64,000 nucleotides of DNA from Burkholderia sp. L27(2015) (GTDB lineage Bacteria; Pseudomonadota; Gammaproteobacteria; Burkholderiales; Burkholderiaceae). The notes under the pieces were generated by a model, which was not told where the DNA came from, did no database searches, and saw nothing but the letters and a program-made list of their open reading frames with translations. The translations under genes and the position numbers were made by a program. Below, piece by piece: positions 27,465 through 38,679 of the stretch; position 1 is the stretch's first letter, and each line of letters begins with the position of its first letter. The stretch is from positions 286,937 through 350,936 of the forward strand of contig NZ_LMUX01000017.1 of assembly GCF_009765705.1 (NCBI RefSeq), read 5' to 3'.

Positions 27465-27784
27465 AAATTCCTCGCTTCTAGTCAAAGTTTGTCCAAGACT
27501 TTTGCCTCTGCGCCGTCACCGACTAACGCAAAGGTACAAATCCTCGGGTTGGGCGCCAGCGTACCAATACCGGCATGAAGGCGCAACGTCTGAGTCCATG
27601 AATTAGCCCGCGAGACTTACCCTTGCCGCAGGAAAACATCTCCTCTTTCATTGCCCTCCCATACCCAATCAGCATAGGTTCCGATTCCCCAAAGGTTTTT
27701 TACAAACCCTGGGTAATGCCGCAAAGTGCTGAAAATCCAAAGCAACATGCACTACATAATAGGACTCAAAATGGAGACACCTCA
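27465..27784. other. Divergent intergenic region carrying a LysR-type box
   Basis: This separates the HU-like gene from the catabolic MFS gene. The notable element is ATACCCAATCAGCATAGGTT (27661-27680), which matches 17 of 20 bases of the box upstream of the LysR gene at 34131-34150. With the preceding bases it fits T-N11-A (CCAT, 11 bases, ATAG). It lies about 105-125 bases before the MFS start. No gene of its own was found here. Confidence 0.65.
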
Positions 27785-29080
27785 ATGAAAGCAGGCCGGA
27801 TTGTCATTTATCTGCTGCTATTTTCCGGATGCTCGATCAACTACATCGACCGTGTCGTACTTTCGGTGGCGGCGACCCCAATCGCCCACGAGTTTGGGCT
27901 CTCAACGATCCAGCTAGGCTATCTCTTCTCTGCGTTTCTCTGGACCTACCTGGTCTTTGTCCTTCCCTGGGGCATGCTCGTCGATCGCATTGGCACCAAA
28001 CGCGCGACCGCCTCCGGCATGGCGCTCTGGTCATTTGCCACGGTGCTTACCGGGTTTTCCGGCGGCTTTTCGACGGCTATTTTGTCCAGACTGTTGATGG
28101 GCTTCGGTGAAGCATCAACCTATCCAGCCGGTGCCAGAACCATACGCGAATGGATGCCCGCCCGTGAACGCGGATTCGCCACGACCGTATTCAACTGCGG
28201 CGGCTATGCCGGCCCCGCGATCGGCTCCGTCCTCATGGGTGCGCTGATCAGCGCGATCGGATGGCGCGGTGGGTTCTACGTTTCCGCCATCATCGGTTTC
28301 ACATGGGTCGTCGTTTGGCTGCTCGTCTACAGGTCTCCAGAAAAAGCGCCCTACATCAGCAACACCGAACGCGCGATGATTCTGTCGCAACGCGGCGGCA
28401 GCGCCGACCCCAGCACCGCAGCGTCATTGCCCGCGCTACTTCGTTGCACCAGCCTCTGGGGATTGTTCATCGTTCAAGGATGCGCGGTCTACACCGTCTA
28501 TTTGTTTCTCAGTTGGCTGCCCAGTTATCTGCAGGCGGTTCACGGCCTCACGGTACTGAAGACGGGCTTTTATACAGCCGTACCGTATGCTGTCGCCGTT
28601 CCCGGCACCATCTGCATGGGCTGGCTGAGCGATCGTCTGTTACGTAACGCACCGATCGACTCCGGTCGTCGTCGAAACATGGTGGCGGTCTTATTGCTCT
28701 GTTCGGCCTGCATTCTGGTCACGCCGCTGGTAACCAATACCGCCCTCGTGCTCGCACTGTTTTCTTTCTCGCTCACCAGTATCGGCAGCACGGTTGGACT
28801 CAACATCGCCTTACTCAGCGACCTACTCCCCAATCCGGCCAATACGGGTCGCGCCCACGGTTTTCTCGTCACGGGCGGAAACCTCTTTGGGGTGATCGCC
28901 CCGATTGCAACGGGTTACGTCGTATCCATCACGGGCAGTTACAACGCCGCATTTGTCATCGCGGGATTGCTTCTGGTATTGGGCGCAACGATCTGCCTCA
29001 CCATGACGCGCAAGCCGATCGCCCCTGCATCACCCGCCGATGCCGCGCTGCTTAAATCGACTTCTGGAGCCAAAGCGTGA
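27785..29080 (+). CDS. MFS transporter of the catabolic island (ACS family)
   Basis: 431 residues, twelve predicted helices. INYIDRVVLSVAATPIAHEF and WGMLVDRIGTKRATASGMAL are ACS-type signatures. ATG 27785 has GGAG eight bases upstream; an upstream-extended reading has neither ribosome site nor family sequence. The stop overlaps the GTG of the following SnoaL-like gene by four bases. A LysR-type box in front suggests control by the LysR protein encoded at 34168. The substrate is probably an organic anion feeding the enzymes of the island; this is inference from neighbours. Confidence 0.87.
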   Translation: MKAGRIVIYLLLFSGCSINYIDRVVLSVAATPIAHEFGLSTIQLGYLFSAFLWTYLVFVLPWGMLVDRIGTKRATASGMALWSFATVLTGFSGGFSTAILSRLLMGFGEASTYPAGARTIREWMPARERGFATTVFNCGGYAGPAIGSVLMGALISAIGWRGGFYVSAIIGFTWVVVWLLVYRSPEKAPYISNTERAMILSQRGGSADPSTAASLPALLRCTSLWGLFIVQGCAVYTVYLFLSWLPSYLQAVHGLTVLKTGFYTAVPYAVAVPGTICMGWLSDRLLRNAPIDSGRRRNMVAVLLLCSACILVTPLVTNTALVLALFSFSLTSIGSTVGLNIALLSDLLPNPANTGRAHGFLVTGGNLFGVIAPIATGYVVSITGSYNAAFVIAGLLLVLGATICLTMTRKPIAPASPADAALLKSTSGAKA

Positions 29081-29508
29081 GTACCTCAGACGACAAAGAC
29101 GATATCCGGGAACTGCTGGCGCAGTACTGCTTTCTGCTCGACGACTATCAATTGACGGAGTTTGCCGCCCTCTTCGCAGAAGACGGTACGTGGAGTTCGC
29201 GCAATGGCGAAGCCACGGGTCGCGCCGCCATCGAGCAGTTGTTGAGGGAACTTGTACCTGTGCCGGGCCCCGGTACACGACGCCGTCATCTGACAACGAA
29301 CATCTTGATTACGCTCCATGGAGACAAAGCGATGGTTCGCTCATATTTCATGGTGGTACGTGACAGTCGCGGCGGGCCGGCGATCGCAGTTGCCGGTCGC
29401 TATGAAGATGAAGTCATTCGCCACGACGGTCGCTGGCTATTCAAATCGAGAAGGCTATCCCACGATATCGCGGGCGAAAGCGGGCTGCTCTCTACTAAGA
29501 GTAGCTGA
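29077..29508 (+). CDS. SnoaL-like (NTF2-fold) protein
   Basis: 143 residues. DDIRELLAQYCFLLDDYQLT and EFAALFAEDGTWSSRNGEATG fit the SnoaL_4/NTF2 fold, seen in small isomerases, cyclases, hydroxylase beta-subunit-like proteins and lactone enzymes; RYEDEVIRHDGRWLFKSRRL is the usual C-terminal strand pair. The start is GTG at 29077, overlapping the MFS stop as GTGA, with GGAG nine bases upstream. It is cotranscribed and coupled with the MFS gene. The reaction is unknown. Confidence 0.82.
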   Translation: MSTSDDKDDIRELLAQYCFLLDDYQLTEFAALFAEDGTWSSRNGEATGRAAIEQLLRELVPVPGPGTRRRHLTTNILITLHGDKAMVRSYFMVVRDSRGGPAIAVAGRYEDEVIRHDGRWLFKSRRLSHDIAGESGLLSTKSS

Positions 29509-29708
29509 AGCACACGGTGTCGCCCCTCAGACGGTAATGCATACCTACACCGCCTGAATTACCGATTCAACAACGTGAAGCGCATGCGCAGCCGTGACCG
29601 GCTGGGTCCGCGCTTGCCCCAACTCGCCCCGACTCGCCGCATATGACCGCTCTCGTGATATCCGAGACGCAAGATAAAAATAACCTAACGACACAGGAGA
29701 CATAGTCC

Positions 29709-30956
29709 GTGCAATCCAATCACTTTATCCGCGCTGCATGCCTGATGCTGGTGAGTACATCGAGCATCCTTGCCCTTCCCGATGTGGCCCAGGCGCAAAG
29801 CTCAGTCACGCTGTATGGAATACTCGACGACGGCATCACTTACACCAACAGTGCGGCAGGGCATTCGTCGATTGTCCAACAGGATGGCAACAATACGGGG
29901 GCAACCGGAAGCCGCCTCGGCTTTCGCGGCATCGAGCAACTAGGCGACGGCCTGAGCGCCATATTCGTTCTCGAGAACGGCTATACGCTACCCAATGGCG
30001 GTCTCCAGCAGGGAGGCCTGATGTTCGGGCGCCAAGCCTATGTCGGCCTGAACAGCGGCCTCGGCACACTGACCTTCGGGCGGCAGTACGACTCGCTCGC
30101 CGACTATCTTCAACCGCTGTCGGCCGCGGCGCAGTGGGGCGGCTATATGATGGGACACGCCGACGAGGTCGATAACATCGTCGATACGAACCGGCTTAAC
30201 AACTCGATCAAGTTCAACACTCAGCGATATGGCGGTTTCCGGGTCGGCGGGATATACAGCCTCGGTGGTGTAGCCGGCGACGTCACCCGCAACCAGGTCC
30301 TGGCATTCGGTGCAGATTATGCGAGTGGTCCCATCGTGATTGCCGCCGCCTATTTGGACGCGAAGGATCCTAACTATGGCTTTTTCGGCGGCAACGGTAA
30401 CGCCCTGACGTCGACCTCTGTCACAAGTACCGGGGCACCGAATACCAACAATATTGGCAGCACCCGCCCGGCCTTTTCCGGATTCGCTTCAGCAGGCAAT
30501 GAACAGATTGCCGCCGTTGGCGCAGCCTATGCGTTTGGTGCCGCACGAGCAGGCATCATCTATTCCAACGTACGGTTTCAGAATCTTGGGGTATTGGCGG
30601 TTTCGGGTACGCCGACGTTCTCGCCAGGAAGTGCCGCTGGATTCAATAGCATCGAACTCAACTTTAAATATCAACTGACGCCTGCCCTGCTACTCGGCGC
30701 TGCCTATAATTTGGTCAAGGGGACTTCCGTCAGGACCGCCGATGGCACAGACATAGGCGCGACCTACAACCAACTTGAAGGTGGGGTGGATTACGCCTTC
30801 AGCAGACGCACCGATGTCTACTTCGTGGGAGTCTTTCAGCATGCAAGTGGAACGGACTCAACAGGGGCTGTCGCACACGCATCGATTGATGGACTGACGC
30901 CCTCCTCTACCGACAAACAGGTTGGCCTACGCGTTGCTCTGCGTACACGCTTCTGA
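29709..30956 (+). CDS. Outer-membrane porin, betaproteobacterial general type
   Basis: 415 residues. A signal peptide (cleavage near AQA-QSS, about residue 30) leads to SSVTLYGILDDGITYTNSAA, the standard first strand of Gram_neg_porins. Further strands such as GSRLGFRGIEQLGDGLSAIF and RQAYVGLNSGLGTLTFGRQY follow, ending with a C-terminal Phe (RVALRTRF) as needed for BAM recognition. The start is GTG 29709 with AGGAGACA upstream. It lies downstream of the MFS/SnoaL pair and would admit the substrate through the outer membrane. A strong hairpin follows. Confidence 0.93.
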   Translation: MQSNHFIRAACLMLVSTSSILALPDVAQAQSSVTLYGILDDGITYTNSAAGHSSIVQQDGNNTGATGSRLGFRGIEQLGDGLSAIFVLENGYTLPNGGLQQGGLMFGRQAYVGLNSGLGTLTFGRQYDSLADYLQPLSAAAQWGGYMMGHADEVDNIVDTNRLNNSIKFNTQRYGGFRVGGIYSLGGVAGDVTRNQVLAFGADYASGPIVIAAAYLDAKDPNYGFFGGNGNALTSTSVTSTGAPNTNNIGSTRPAFSGFASAGNEQIAAVGAAYAFGAARAGIIYSNVRFQNLGVLAVSGTPTFSPGSAAGFNSIELNFKYQLTPALLLGAAYNLVKGTSVRTADGTDIGATYNQLEGGVDYAFSRRTDVYFVGVFQHASGTDSTGAVAHASIDGLTPSSTDKQVGLRVALRTRF

Positions 30957-30996
30957 TATCTCAGGTGATGCTTAAGGGGATGTTTAAGGTGGTACC

Positions 30997-31027
30997 TAAG
31001 CGGGTGAGCCACATGCTCACCCGCTTA
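30997..31027. terminator. Bidirectional hairpin terminator
   Basis: TAAGCGGGTGAGC (30997-31009) and GCTCACCCGCTTA (31015-31027) pair perfectly over 13 bp with loop CACAT. It separates the porin gene from the converging amidohydrolase gene. Confidence 0.85.
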
Positions 31028-31064
31028 ACGTACGACATTCCGTTTGCCACCGTACCCGATTCCG

Positions 31065-31913
31065 TCAGCGATATAAGGCTAGCGGATTCTCCGTGAGCAC
31101 TCGCACAAAGTGATCCCGTCCTTCACAGATAGCTTCGAGCAACAACAACAGCGCTGCCTCGTCGGGCCAAGGGGTCGTAATGTTTGGGTGAGGCCAGTCA
31201 CTCCCCCAAAGCGTGCGGGTCGGGGCAACCTGAAGTAAGCGCCGGATAATTGGGGCAGCGTCGTCGAAGGGCGGTACTCCACGCGAAATGCGATCTGCGC
31301 CGGACACCTTGATCCACCGATCGGGACGTGCCAGACTCTCTTCAAGTTCAGCAAACTCCGAATAATCGACCCCGAGTTCTGCCTCAACCCGCGCCATGTG
31401 ATCGATGACAACGGGAATATCGCTATTCTCCAGGGCGCGAAGCGCCAGCAAGACTTCATTGAGCTTGCCGTGTACGAGCAGGTGCCATCCATGCGTGCGG
31501 ATACGCGCTGCGATCGCCTTCATTCTCCCTGGATCCGTGCCACCCGGCAGGTGTGGCACGACGTTTAGCCTAGCCCCCCGGACACCCGCCTCGTGAAGCT
31601 GACCCAGCGTTATTTGGTCGACATCTGGCTCAATCAGGGCAATACCCCGATACCTTCCCGCACTCGCGCGTAGTGCCGCAACCAGTGCCGTATGATCCGA
31701 GCCATAAGCCGCAGCCTGTACCAGCACACCGTTCGTAATGCCGAGTCGACCATGAAGCGCCTTTAGCGACTCGAAGGGGGCTTCGGCCGGTCGATATGCC
31801 GCCTCAGCCGGTAATGGGAATTGCACCCATGGGCCAAATACGTGCGTGTGGCAGTCCCATGCCCCATTGGGGATCTGGGGAAATTGGCCTGGTTTTAATG
31901 GATCTTGTATCAC
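31065..31913 (-). CDS. Amidohydrolase-superfamily lactonase (2-pyrone-4,6-dicarboxylate hydrolase-like)
   Basis: 282 residues, a TIM-barrel metal hydrolase. WDCHTHVFGPWVQFPL near residue 19 carries the HxH metal pair, VIDHMARVEAELGVDYSEF lies mid-protein, and LWGSDWPHPNITTPWPDE carries the last-strand Asp. This pattern is that of LigI (2-pyrone-4,6-dicarboxylate lactonase) and of the related 4-sulfomuconolactone and galactarolactone enzymes. It starts five bases after the preceding gene's stop, so it is the last gene of a four-gene minus-strand operon. It would open a lactone intermediate in the island's pathway. Confidence 0.85.
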   Translation of the reverse strand: MIQDPLKPGQFPQIPNGAWDCHTHVFGPWVQFPLPAEAAYRPAEAPFESLKALHGRLGITNGVLVQAAAYGSDHTALVAALRASAGRYRGIALIEPDVDQITLGQLHEAGVRGARLNVVPHLPGGTDPGRMKAIAARIRTHGWHLLVHGKLNEVLLALRALENSDIPVVIDHMARVEAELGVDYSEFAELEESLARPDRWIKVSGADRISRGVPPFDDAAPIIRRLLQVAPTRTLWGSDWPHPNITTPWPDEAALLLLLEAICEGRDHFVRVLTENPLALYR

Positions 31914-31918
31914 ACACC

Positions 31919-32470
31919 CTACCCGTTAAGCTCGTGAGCAATGCCGTCGGGCAATCCGACCTGAAATACGTTGATGGTCATCGAAATCAGTGTGTAGTAC
32001 CCGGCCAATCCAACCAGATCGATGACCGCTGTTTCACCCAATTCCTGAACGGCTTGCGCATACAGCGCATCCGGAATTTCACGTGTTTGATGCAGGACAA
32101 CGAGAAACGAATGTACGAGTTCCTCGTCCTTCTGGCCCGAGAACAATTGGCGCGTTCTGATGGCCTCGACGGTATTCGCAGCGACACCCGCTTTGAGTGC
32201 GATGGGCTTGTGTGCATACCACTCGTATTCGGAGTTCCACAACCTCGCCATCGTCAATATCGCCAACTCCGAGAGGCGCGGTGAAAGCGCCGTCTCGTAT
32301 CTGCAGTAGCGTCCCAGCGATTGCGCATACTCGGCTAGACCAGGGTTGTTGAGCCAGACGGCAAGGGGACCACGCACTCCCTTGCGCGGCCCGGAGGCAA
32401 TCTCGTCATAGATGCGACGCTGTGCGTCGCTCATGGCTTCCGGCACTGGACCGGAAATCCGCTGTTTCAT
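31919..32470 (-). CDS. Carboxymuconolactone decarboxylase-like protein
   Basis: 183 residues. LSELAILTMARLWNSEYEWY followed by AHKPIALKAGV is the CMD/AhpD-fold core. The AhpD CxxC is absent, so a thiol peroxidase-type role is unlikely and a decarboxylase, or a structural relative without known activity, is more likely. ATG 32470 has GGAGAGACTC just upstream; a start four codons earlier is less well placed. It sits 91 bases after the ferredoxin-fold-like gene and five bases before the amidohydrolase gene in the minus operon. Confidence 0.83.
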   Translation of the reverse strand: MKQRISGPVPEAMSDAQRRIYDEIASGPRKGVRGPLAVWLNNPGLAEYAQSLGRYCRYETALSPRLSELAILTMARLWNSEYEWYAHKPIALKAGVAANTVEAIRTRQLFSGQKDEELVHSFLVVLHQTREIPDALYAQAVQELGETAVIDLVGLAGYYTLISMTINVFQVGLPDGIAHELNG

Positions 32471-32561
32471 GAGTCTCTCCACAAAAAATCGATGGCTATC
32501 AGTCCGATCGGACGGGCGCCCCCCCGTTTCTCAAGGCGAGGAGGGAAGGGAAAATTGGCCG

Positions 32562-33179
32562 TTACGGATTACGCCAGTACGGCGCATACAGATTGAATGT
32601 CGAAGGTGCCCGTCCCGCCGGTCGGCCGAGAAGCGCGCGCAACTCGACTACGCTCATGGCTGATGCAAACGTTGCGAAAACCCACAATTTTGTGATGTGC
32701 CCAGCATCGTCCTGGGAGACGAAACTACGGAGCTGACTCAAATCGGGATGAGTGCCCCACACATCGCGAATGCCACGGATGATACCTGCCGCTTCATCTT
32801 GGTTTTGGATTGCGAAACCGAGCCACGCCAGGCAGGCTGAATTTTTAGGATCATGCTGCAATGAGTCCTGCGACTCGAATGCCTGTGCAATAACACGAGT
32901 TCGCCCGATGGTTCGGGGCAATATCCGGCGACTCCATGGCGTGGAGCGTGGACCCGATACGCTCAGATACGCATCGCTTTCAAGTGCCGCTGTCGACGTA
33001 AGGTCGTAAAGTGCCAACCAGCGAGGCCAGCCGTCCAGGCACACCCAGCGGGACGCCGATTCAAACCCGGGGATTGCTGAGCGTTGAGGGAAATGCTCAA
33101 GGTCGTACCAGTCGTTGAATTCTTCCTCGAGCGAAGCAGGAGGCTCCATTGTGACGAGCAGCAGCGCGCGCGACGTCAT
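32562..33179 (-). CDS. EthD/NIPSNAP-like dimeric ferredoxin-fold protein
   Basis: 205 residues. FNDWYDLEHFPQRSAIPGFE near residue 20 is the hallmark of two-domain dimeric alpha-beta barrel proteins (EthD/NIPSNAP-like), and ALYDLTSTAALESDAYLSV follows as expected. The second half is a weaker repeat. Such proteins often sit in catabolic clusters as small oxygenases, isomerases or helper proteins; no catalytic residue can be assigned. Its start overlaps the stop of the alpha/beta-hydrolase gene by four bases, so they are coupled. Confidence 0.7.
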   Translation of the reverse strand: MTSRALLLVTMEPPASLEEEFNDWYDLEHFPQRSAIPGFESASRWVCLDGWPRWLALYDLTSTAALESDAYLSVSGPRSTPWSRRILPRTIGRTRVIAQAFESQDSLQHDPKNSACLAWLGFAIQNQDEAAGIIRGIRDVWGTHPDLSQLRSFVSQDDAGHITKLWVFATFASAMSVVELRALLGRPAGRAPSTFNLYAPYWRNP

Positions 33180-34048
33180 ATCTGCGCCCTCCCCGATGCC
33201 AAGGATGAGGCAAGACCATCCACATCGCCATTCTCTTCTTGACGCTGCACGAAGTCGATAATCATTCGAGCCAGCTCGTCAGGCGCCTGCACCGCCACCA
33301 GATGGCCGCAGTCAAGCTCGGCAAATTCGACGCGCTGTGGGTCACCCCACAGCGCGGCCAATTCAGCGACATGCAGGGGTGGACGCAGAGGGTCATGCGT
33401 ACCGGCAACCATTAAGCATGCAACATGAGATCGAGCCAGACCATCGCGCAACTGCGCGCTGCCCAAGGCCCGATTGGCAAGACCGTAAGCCACCGGATCA
33501 TTCCCGAGAAAACGTGCTCGATACGTTTCGAATCTAGCCGCCCCTCCCCGCTGTCGCAACGCCACCGGGTATGAGCGGTCCAGGGTCGCCGCCTCGATTG
33601 CGCGCATGCCATGATTAACGGCTAGATCCGATCGCTGTTCCAGATAGGTACGACGTGCCGCATCGGCTTCGAGCGCCGGCGCGCACAGCACCATACCGGC
33701 CACTCGTTCCGGATATCGTAACGCATGGATTAGCGCGACTGCTGCACCTGCAGCCGCCGCGACCAGCCAATACGGCTGAGGTAGCTTCGACTCAATCAGT
33801 ACCATGTCAAGATCGTCGGCAAGTTGCTCCAGTGTCATCGGCTCACGGACTTTCTCCGAGCCGCCGTGGCCACGTTGATCCAATCGAAGGATGGTGAAAT
33901 CGGCCACAAGCGGCTCGATTGCTTCATCCCAGCTTTCGAGACTCCCCCCCAGTTCATGGAGCATGACCATACTGCGCTTACCGTGTCCGGCGATGGTATA
34001 GCGCAAACTGATGGAATCGTTTCGTGTCCAGCGGAAATTAAAGGTCAT
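33176..34048 (-). CDS. Alpha/beta-hydrolase-fold protein lacking the serine nucleophile
   Basis: 290 residues, resembling 3-oxoadipate enol-lactonase and relatives: LHELGGSLESWDEAIEPLVA, LRLDQRGHGGSEK, and acid and histidine segments GTHDPLRPP and LDCGHLVAVQAPDELARMI. At the nucleophile elbow the sequence is LVAAAAGAAVAL, so the GxSxG serine is alanine (codon GCT at 33752-33754, residue 99). The fold is otherwise complete. It is first in the minus operon and divergent from the LysR gene. ATG 34048 is chosen; a GTG at 34087 is the longer alternative. The protein may have lost activity or use a different chemistry. Confidence 0.85.
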   Translation of the reverse strand: MTFNFRWTRNDSISLRYTIAGHGKRSMVMLHELGGSLESWDEAIEPLVADFTILRLDQRGHGGSEKVREPMTLEQLADDLDMVLIESKLPQPYWLVAAAAGAAVALIHALRYPERVAGMVLCAPALEADAARRTYLEQRSDLAVNHGMRAIEAATLDRSYPVALRQRGGAARFETYRARFLGNDPVAYGLANRALGSAQLRDGLARSHVACLMVAGTHDPLRPPLHVAELAALWGDPQRVEFAELDCGHLVAVQAPDELARMIIDFVQRQEENGDVDGLASSLASGRAQI

Positions 34049-34100
34049 CTTACAAGGGCATAGGGCTAACTTAGCGATACTGTGCACGCAGGCTCTTACA

Positions 34101-34150
34101 TTGACAAAAACCGTTTTGCGATGGCAATCTATACCGGATCAGCATAGCTT
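34101..34150. promoter_or_regulatory. LysR-type operator in the divergent promoter region
   Basis: CTAT (34129-34132) and ATAG (34144-34147) are separated by 11 bases, a perfect T-N11-A dyad. The 20-mer ATACCGGATCAGCATAGCTT (34131-34150) recurs with three differences at 27661-27680. A TTGACA at 34101-34106 can be a -35 for the LysR gene, though the -10 is weak. The site lies between the hydrolase operon and the LysR gene and would control both. Confidence 0.7.
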
Positions 34151-34167: not shown

Positions 34168-35151
34168 TTGGAGAGTACCATCGACATCCGTGAATTACGC
34201 TATTTCATACAGATCGCCCGTGCAGGTAGTTTCAGCCGCGCCGCAGCCGAGCTCTATATCGCACAACCTGCATTAAGCCGCCAGATTACCAAGCTCGAAC
34301 AAGAGCTCGGCGTACAGTTATTCGTACGACATGGGCGTGGCATCAAGCTGACGAATGCGGGTGCTTTGCTGCTCGACCGGGCGGAAATGATCACACATTA
34401 CGTTCGCCAGGCGGGCGACCAGGTTCGTGCGGCAGGGGACGGTTTGAGTGGCCACATCACGATCGGGATGCCGCCGGCCATAGGCGTCCCACTGCTGCCG
34501 CGCGTCATTGAGTCATTCGCTAGCCGCTGGCCCAGCGTATCCATTCATGTTCGCGAGGGGCTAAGTACCTCGCTGCAAGAATGGCTGATTGACCGCCGTG
34601 TCGACCTCGCCGTCGTTTATAACCAACCGCCGCTCGATGCACTCGATATTGCGTCGATGTTCACCGAGCCCATGGTCGTCGTCTGCCCACCGGAATCGGA
34701 CCGCCCCCCGCTGGCCGCGCCATTCCGGATCCGGGATTTGGCCGACCTGCCCTTGATTCTGCCCGGACTTCCGCACGCTAACCGGCGTGTCATCGAGCGT
34801 GCCGCGGTGCAGCACGACGTGCATTTGCGCATCGTGCTCGAAGTGGACAGTGTGCCATTGACCAAGGCGTTGGTCGCACAAGGTTTCGGCTATTCCCTGC
34901 TTACCTATACGGCCGTACAAGACGATGTCGCTCGCGGTCGCCTACATGCAGTCGCAATTGAGCGCCCCGCGATTCGCTCAACGGTATCGATTGCGACACT
35001 CCGGGACGTTCGCAAATCTCCCGTCATTGATGCCATGTTCAACGTTGTTTCGGACAAGCTTCACGAACTCGTCGTGAGCGACGCTTGGCAGGCGCAGGTT
35101 TCGTGGGTAGCGCTTGAATCGCCCGACGAGGAGATGTCGGTCTTGCCCTGA
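34168..35151 (+). CDS. LysR-family regulator of the catabolic island
   Basis: 327 residues. The HTH is at about 6-65 (ELRYFIQIARAGSFSRAAAE then IAQPALSRQITKLEQELGVQ), then a substrate-binding co-inducer domain with GHITIGMPPAIGVPLLPRVI. It should activate the divergent hydrolase operon and, through a second box, the MFS operon. The start is unusual: the only ordinary codon is TTG at 34168, without a ribosome site, while GGAGAG (34170-34175) sits properly spaced before ATC at 34180. Translation may begin at either. It is cotranscribed at most loosely with the MHS transporter 161 bases downstream. Confidence 0.9.
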   Translation: MESTIDIRELRYFIQIARAGSFSRAAAELYIAQPALSRQITKLEQELGVQLFVRHGRGIKLTNAGALLLDRAEMITHYVRQAGDQVRAAGDGLSGHITIGMPPAIGVPLLPRVIESFASRWPSVSIHVREGLSTSLQEWLIDRRVDLAVVYNQPPLDALDIASMFTEPMVVVCPPESDRPPLAAPFRIRDLADLPLILPGLPHANRRVIERAAVQHDVHLRIVLEVDSVPLTKALVAQGFGYSLLTYTAVQDDVARGRLHAVAIERPAIRSTVSIATLRDVRKSPVIDAMFNVVSDKLHELVVSDAWQAQVSWVALESPDEEMSVLP

Positions 35152-37776: not shown

Positions 37777-38679
37777 ATGATCGATAACCTTAAAGCCTTA
37801 GCTGCCATCATCGACAGCAAATCGCTGACCAAAGCAGCGTCTCGGCTATGCTTGACGCAGTCCGCCATCTCGCGCCGTATTCAGCAACTCGAAGAAGCAC
37901 TCGGCGGCACATTGCTCGATCGGACCCAGCGTCCGCCAACCGCTACGGCGCTTGGCCAGCGCGTCTATGAGCAAGCGTTGCCGATCCTGCGCGCGCTCGA
38001 TGAACTGATGGCGATTACCCGGCCAGACGCGTCGCCCACCGGCACCTTGCGGTTCGGCATGTCCCAGGCCATCGGCGACGTCATGCTGGCCGACTCGGTC
38101 GAGCAAGTGGCAAGAGAGTTTCCAGGACTCGACGTTCGCGTGCGCGCTGGCCGGGGCGACCAACTGGCCGTCCAGGTCGGCGCGGGTGATCTCGACGCCG
38201 CCATCGTCATACTACCGCTGGACACACGGCCGACGCCGCCGTTGATGGGCCGGATCATAGCCACCGTCGATGTGGCGATCGTGCAGAGCCGTCGGCGCCC
38301 ACTGGTGAGTGACCCGGTCCTCCTTGCCGAGCTAGCAGAGCAAGACTGGATCTTGAACCCGCTGGGCTGCGGGTATCGCGCCGAGTTGGAACGCGCCATG
38401 GGTGAGCAGGACGGCAGCCTGCGTGTCGCGGTTGACACCTACGGCATTGAGATCCAATTGCGCATGGTCGCGTCCGGTCTGGGGCTTGGCCTCGTGCCGC
38501 GCAGTGCGCTCAAGGCCAGCGGCAACCGCGACGGCGTCGCGATCGTAGAAGTCACCGATTTCGGTATGGCGCTGGACATCTGGCTGGTCCATCTCAAGGA
38601 GTTCGGCAACTTGAAACGGGCAATCGAGTCGTTGGCAACGACCGTTGCCGACGGCTTCGCCCTCTACGCCGCTACTTAG
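37777..38679 (+). CDS. LysR-family transcriptional regulator
   Basis: 300 residues. The HTH is at about 1-60 (LKALAAIIDSKSLTKAASRL then LTQSAISRRIQQLEEALGG), then an effector domain with GTLRFGMSQAIGDVMLADSV and VASGLGLGLVPRSALKA. CGAGGCATC precedes the ATG. It stands upstream of and on the same strand as the EthD/isochorismatase-like/DJ-1 genes and is their most likely regulator, though a 320-base gap lies between. Confidence 0.88.
   Translation: MIDNLKALAAIIDSKSLTKAASRLCLTQSAISRRIQQLEEALGGTLLDRTQRPPTATALGQRVYEQALPILRALDELMAITRPDASPTGTLRFGMSQAIGDVMLADSVEQVAREFPGLDVRVRAGRGDQLAVQVGAGDLDAAIVILPLDTRPTPPLMGRIIATVDVAIVQSRRRPLVSDPVLLAELAEQDWILNPLGCGYRAELERAMGEQDGSLRVAVDTYGIEIQLRMVASGLGLGLVPRSALKASGNRDGVAIVEVTDFGMALDIWLVHLKEFGNLKRAIESLATTVADGFALYAAT

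Follow-up and report, generated by a model that had tools for sequence, protein, structure and literature searches.

A promoter element predicted to place an enzyme operon, a transporter operon and an unlinked symporter gene under one LysR-type regulator in Burkholderia sp. L27(2015)

LysR-type transcriptional regulators usually recognise a T-N11-A site near position -65 (PMC8407307). The described systems closest to the locus analysed here are the PcaQ, CbnR/CatR and TsaR-type LysR regulators of aromatic-acid catabolism, and the pathways of LigI and 4-sulfomuconolactone hydrolase. The locus lies in a window of 64,000 nucleotides of the Burkholderia sp. L27(2015) genome (contig NZ_LMUX01000017.1, positions 286,937 to 350,936) and, like the former group, has a regulator gene divergent from a catabolic operon and a T-N11-A dyad at about -65. 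The NCBIfam matches of its LysR protein include PcaQ and other LysR models, and TsaR is among its nearest solved structures. Unlike those regulators, however, it does not reach the cut-off of any named regulator among the NCBIfam models listed, has a motif of its own (CTATGC-N7-GCATAG), and is predicted to serve several promoters, one of them unlinked. The amidohydrolase of the locus resembles both LigI (PDB 4d8l, E 1.9e-50) and 4-sulfomuconolactone hydrolase, but its score of 177 bits against the latter's curated model (SlmHylase, NF042924) is far under the cut-off of 500, and its companions here are a carboxymuconolactone-decarboxylase-family protein (CMD), a PcaD-like hydrolase, a 205-aa protein that matches no Pfam family, and a symporter. 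The PcaD-like hydrolase is likewise not PcaD by the curated cut-off (TIGR02427; 131 bits vs 256). A literature search for this gene combination found no match, and we found no description of the pathway of this cluster in the literature searched. We can only guess at the substrate, perhaps a ring-cleavage product or a carboxylated lactone, from the likeness of the enzymes to LigI, CMD and PcaD types and from the presence of a dicarboxylate-type symporter among the transporters. The locus would represent a regulon for uptake and catabolism, so far undescribed, that has a defined promoter element of 70 bases and three targets.

The features of the locus are listed in Table 1. The lysR product has both domains of the LysR family, an N-terminal PF00126 (HTH_1, E 1.7e-25) and a C-terminal PF03466 (LysR_substrate, E 1.1e-44), each exceeding the gathering score. 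For the alpha/beta hydrolase, ATG 34048 is a likelier start than the listed GTG 34087, because the GTG lies upstream of the predicted transcription start. Neither a terminator-like nor a promoter-like site was detected in the 200-base gap before the porin gene, and for this reason we infer that the porin probably forms the end of the MFS-SnoaL transcript.

Table 1. Genes and predicted control sites of the locus, with positions in the window unless another locus is named.
Feature	Position	Strand	Remarks
Predicted LysR box, MFS promoter: CCATAC-CCAATCA-GCATAG	27659..27677	+	model R1 match 27661-27732, 18.3 bits
GGTTT and -35 TTTACA, MFS promoter	27694..27704	+	spacing as in relatives
-10 CAAAGT, MFS promoter, N17 spacer	27722..27727	+	CANAGT form of the closest relatives' loci
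MFS transporter (MFS_1, anion:cation symporter-like)	27785..29080	+	
SnoaL_4-fold protein	29077..29508	+	4-base overlap with the MFS gene
Porin (Porin_4)	29709..30956	+	45% identity to the box-driven porin of Paraburkholderia largidicola
Amidohydrolase (Amidohydro_2)	31065..31913	-	like LigI 2-pyrone-4,6-dicarboxylate hydrolase and 4-sulfomuconolactone hydrolase
Carboxymuconolactone-decarboxylase-family protein (CMD)	31919..32482	-	
205-aa protein	32562..33179	-	conserved in five relatives' clusters (45-55%)
Alpha/beta hydrolase	33176..34048	-	3-oxoadipate enol-lactonase-like, PcaD-like
-10 CACAGT, hydrolase-operon promoter, N17 spacer	34079..34084	-	CANAGT at the corresponding place in L095, L097, L098, L099
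GGTTT and -35 TTGTCA, hydrolase-operon promoter	34102..34112	-	TTGACAAAAACC on the + strand; conserved in relatives
Predicted LysR box, hydrolase operon/lysR gap: CTATGC-TGATCCG-GTATAG	34129..34147	-	model R1, 48.4 bits
LysR-type regulator gene (lysR)	34180..35151	+	probable ATC start codon, aligned with Met1 of relatives
ATC-start loci	window 34168-34185; L095 12001, L097 9734, L098 9952, L099 10152 (-)		
Third element copy and symporter gene	L150 (G000:C9:1177000-1196900): box 9210, symporter from 9362; promoter G000:C9:1186205-1186285		model R1, 33.8 bits

The original prediction was that a single LysR protein drives two arms of one regulon, one for import and one of enzymes, and it rested on two similar 20-base sequences, ATACCCAATCAGCATAGGTT (27661-27680) and ATACCGGATCAGCATAGCTT (34131-34150). 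An exact position check confirmed the coordinates of both and their identity at 17 of 20 bases. Both fit T-N11-A (as CYAT-N11-ATAG), and the gene layout is as described, with one box before the MFS and SnoaL genes and the other between the hydrolase operon and lysR. The merged 20-base pattern, with up to three mismatches, matched the window only at these two places (0.02 matches expected in shuffled sequence), and a scan of the whole genome (6.42 Mb, 73 contigs) at the same tolerance again returned the two window sites alone; the control, with the pattern read backwards, gave one match. The statement that the window holds no third copy is correct for the window, but a third, more diverged copy exists elsewhere in the genome.

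The unit that is conserved among relatives is shifted in register against these 20-mers. It is a 19-bp dyad, CTATGC-N7-GCATAG, whose N7 spacer is not conserved across the relatives' boxes. Read on the same strand, the two window 19-mers are identical at 16 of 19 positions; when each follows its own direction of transcription, they share only 11 of 19. The spacer contributes five identical bases of seven to the 17/20 (P about 0.013 per orientation) and, since it is not conserved among relatives, this part of the agreement is probably luck. A search of 149 relatives with the exact 20-mer at three mismatches returned scattered matches, nearly all with three mismatches and none known in this context; such matches are few because the 20-mer register takes in unconserved spacer bases. 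Stronger evidence lies downstream of each box, where GGTTTTT(N2)CAA and a CANAGT -10 follow at identical spacing. It is the half-site pair together with the downstream block and the spacing that constitutes the real evidence for the proposed shared control.

Orthologs of the LysR protein, with 50-64% identity, were found in 17 other genomes of the family (398 searched), and their first 60 residues are identical to the window's at 42-48 of 60 positions across the family, with AQPALSRQ invariant. These orthologs surfaced only in the family search; degenerate-peptide searches of the genome_contigs set and of 399 genomes of the order yielded only relatives of 26-54% identity. The LysR protein encoded on a Paraburkholderia largidicola replicon is 64% identical, and the genes for the alpha/beta hydrolase, the 205-aa protein, CMD and the amidohydrolase are syntenic there. 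At the relatives' loci the layout toward the operon divergent from lysR is fixed: CTATGC-N7-GCATAG, N16, GGTYT-TTGTCA (-35), N17 and the -10. Sixteen bases past the dyad, the DNA upstream of the relatives' lysR genes reads GGTYTTTGTCAA. The -10 has the form CANAGT in the closest relatives of the window and TATGCT in nearly all others. Both window sites fit this element with identical spacing, although at the MFS-side site 2 of the 12 half-site bases and the -35 differ from the consensus. Relative to transcription starts predicted from this geometry (about 27734 on the + strand for the MFS promoter and about 34072 on the - strand for the hydrolase promoter), the box centre is at about -66 at both window sites and in the relatives, so that each window site combines a T-N11-A dyad with a position near -65. 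A simple consensus promoter scan recognised neither the MFS nor the hydrolase promoter, which is no surprise given their poor -10 elements.

We built a model (R1, from alignment A1) from sequence only, using the promoters of 18 relatives and no window sequence. Its best three places in the genome are the hydrolase promoter (genome E 3.9e-12), a site on contig C9 (E 1.3e-7) and the MFS promoter (genome E 0.009). The score of the MFS promoter is unconvincing genome-wide if taken alone, but the site belongs to the cluster and reaches an E-value of 9.1e-5 within the window. Across the family, strong matches (E below 1e-6) were found in 18 of 18 genomes with a lysR ortholog, the window's included, in each case at the operon divergent from lysR, and in 0 of the 380 others. 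The element is therefore present with the regulator and absent without it, a correspondence that is partly circular in its presence half: most positive promoters trained the model, and the independent parts are the absence elsewhere and the hits in the window's own genome. Weak matches (E 1.6e-4 to 0.009) occurred in four genomes without an ortholog, about the number expected. Matches to CTACGCGAGCTGATCATCG... in five genomes were rejected as look-alikes which the full model does not report.

The C9 site (CCATGC-TTTTTTG-GCATGA...TGGTCA-N17-CAAAGT) stands before the gene of an SDF-family dicarboxylate-type symporter. This symporter is 75-77% identical to the symporter encoded inside the relatives' lysR-divergent operons, and 38-47% identical to its six next best paralogs in its own genome. 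An operon gene of the relatives thus sits elsewhere here with the same element in front of it, which argues strongly that the element ties the enzyme operon and the C9 symporter together, and makes the gene a candidate for a clean natural example of co-regulation surviving operon splitting. Second copies of the element were also found in relatives, before a porin gene (L095), an MFS gene (L098) and alpha/beta hydrolase genes (L097, L099). Extra uptake and enzyme genes predicted to be driven from additional boxes are recurrent among relatives. The window's MFS gene is not an ortholog of the relatives' second-box transporter (about 25% identity).

Comparative footprinting and the window-free model thus support the predicted regulon with its two arms, import and enzymes, and would extend it to a third promoter. 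We consider it highly probable that the LysR protein is a pathway-specific activator of three or more promoters, including those of the enzyme operon, the MFS-SnoaL-(porin) operon and the C9 symporter. From the computed sites and their spacing, conservation and specificity, we infer that LysR would recognise dyads resembling CTATGC-N7-GCATAG, each about 66 bases upstream of its promoter, at the divergent enzyme operon, at the MFS operon 6.5 kb off and at the symporter gene on another contig. Following the usual LysR scheme, the box would anchor a LysR tetramer which, when bound to inducer, may contact the block that is conserved as far as the -35 (GGTYTTTGTCAA) and bring RNA polymerase to a promoter whose -10 is poor (CANAGT). 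As inducer we presume the acid that is taken up, or an intermediate formed as it is broken down. The box beside lysR ends 32 bases ahead of the lysR coding region and probably mediates autoregulation also. Gene control as proposed here is of an ordinary kind, and its support from the comparison of related species is unusually good.

An alternative reading limits the LysR protein to the enzyme operon and the symporter, the MFS-side site being a chance likeness or a decayed relic in front of an operon that is regulated otherwise. The site is indeed the weakest of the three, the four genomes without an ortholog show matches similar to it, and the spacer's share of the 17/20 has no counterpart in relatives. 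However, it is part of the same cluster, with a start codon about 110 bases downstream, and it aligns with the hydrolase promoter in its half-sites, its GGTTTTT block, its 17-base spacer and its CANAGT -10; the relatives' second boxes before uptake genes also speak against chance. We regard this reading as improbable. That the boxes are recognised by some other LysR protein of the genome appears exceedingly unlikely to us, despite the many candidates (177 LysR genes at first look; the window has one at 37777, and another neighbours the C9 symporter gene). The element tracks the orthologs of this LysR protein in 18 of 18 genomes and directly adjoins lysR in each, and the LysR proteins encoded at 37777 and next to the C9 symporter gene have recognition helices that are quite different.

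The sign of control is a separate matter, and the direction is not readable from sequence. Some LysR proteins are repressors, and LysR could shut all three promoters in the absence of inducer without activating them. For a pure repressor one would expect the box to cover the -10 or the transcription start, whereas the layout here is that of an activator, with the box centre near -66, a conserved block between the box and the -35, and a poor -10. We therefore give repression little weight and retain activation as the preferred reading.

The start of lysR is unusual. The codon aligned with Met1 of the LysR protein is ATC, with GGAG six bases upstream, in the window and in four relatives. In the window, TTG 34168 is the sole standard start codon in frame ahead of the HTH, and no ribosome-binding site is evident for it; at two of the relatives' loci (L097 and L098) the stretch from the upstream stop to the aligned ATC contains no ATG, GTG or TTG in frame. 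The lysR gene thus probably starts at the ATC (34180), and the alignment suggests that an AUC start codon is conserved across the window and the four relatives. If true, this would be a rare case of a conserved non-standard start on a regulator gene. A combined scenario, in which the regulon was split in evolution with control kept, the symporter having moved with its own copy of the element, and in which lysR is held low by the clade-conserved AUC start, is conceivable, though as a whole we lean slightly against it.

Most relatives' operons also have an SDR gene in common, about 80-90% identical among them (L095 7607-8410, L097 5340-6149). No ortholog was found in the window's genome or at the L099 locus (genome G016). 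A relocation like that of the symporter was rejected, the best match in the window's genome being 43% identical, and the gene has probably been lost from this genome.

Outside the family, a conjugative plasmid of Agrobacterium sp. T29, an alphaproteobacterium, carries a similar CMD/SDR/amidohydrolase/LysR/symporter cluster (L096). Its LysR protein is 47% identical to the window's, and no recognisable element was found in the cluster. For this reason the element as modelled here is not universal beyond the family, and the cluster suggests horizontal spread, with another operator in use there. Within the set of genomes analysed, contigs C1, C6 and C8 of genome G481 carry three identical copies of the element and one partial copy, which looks like a duplication of the locus or of its flank.
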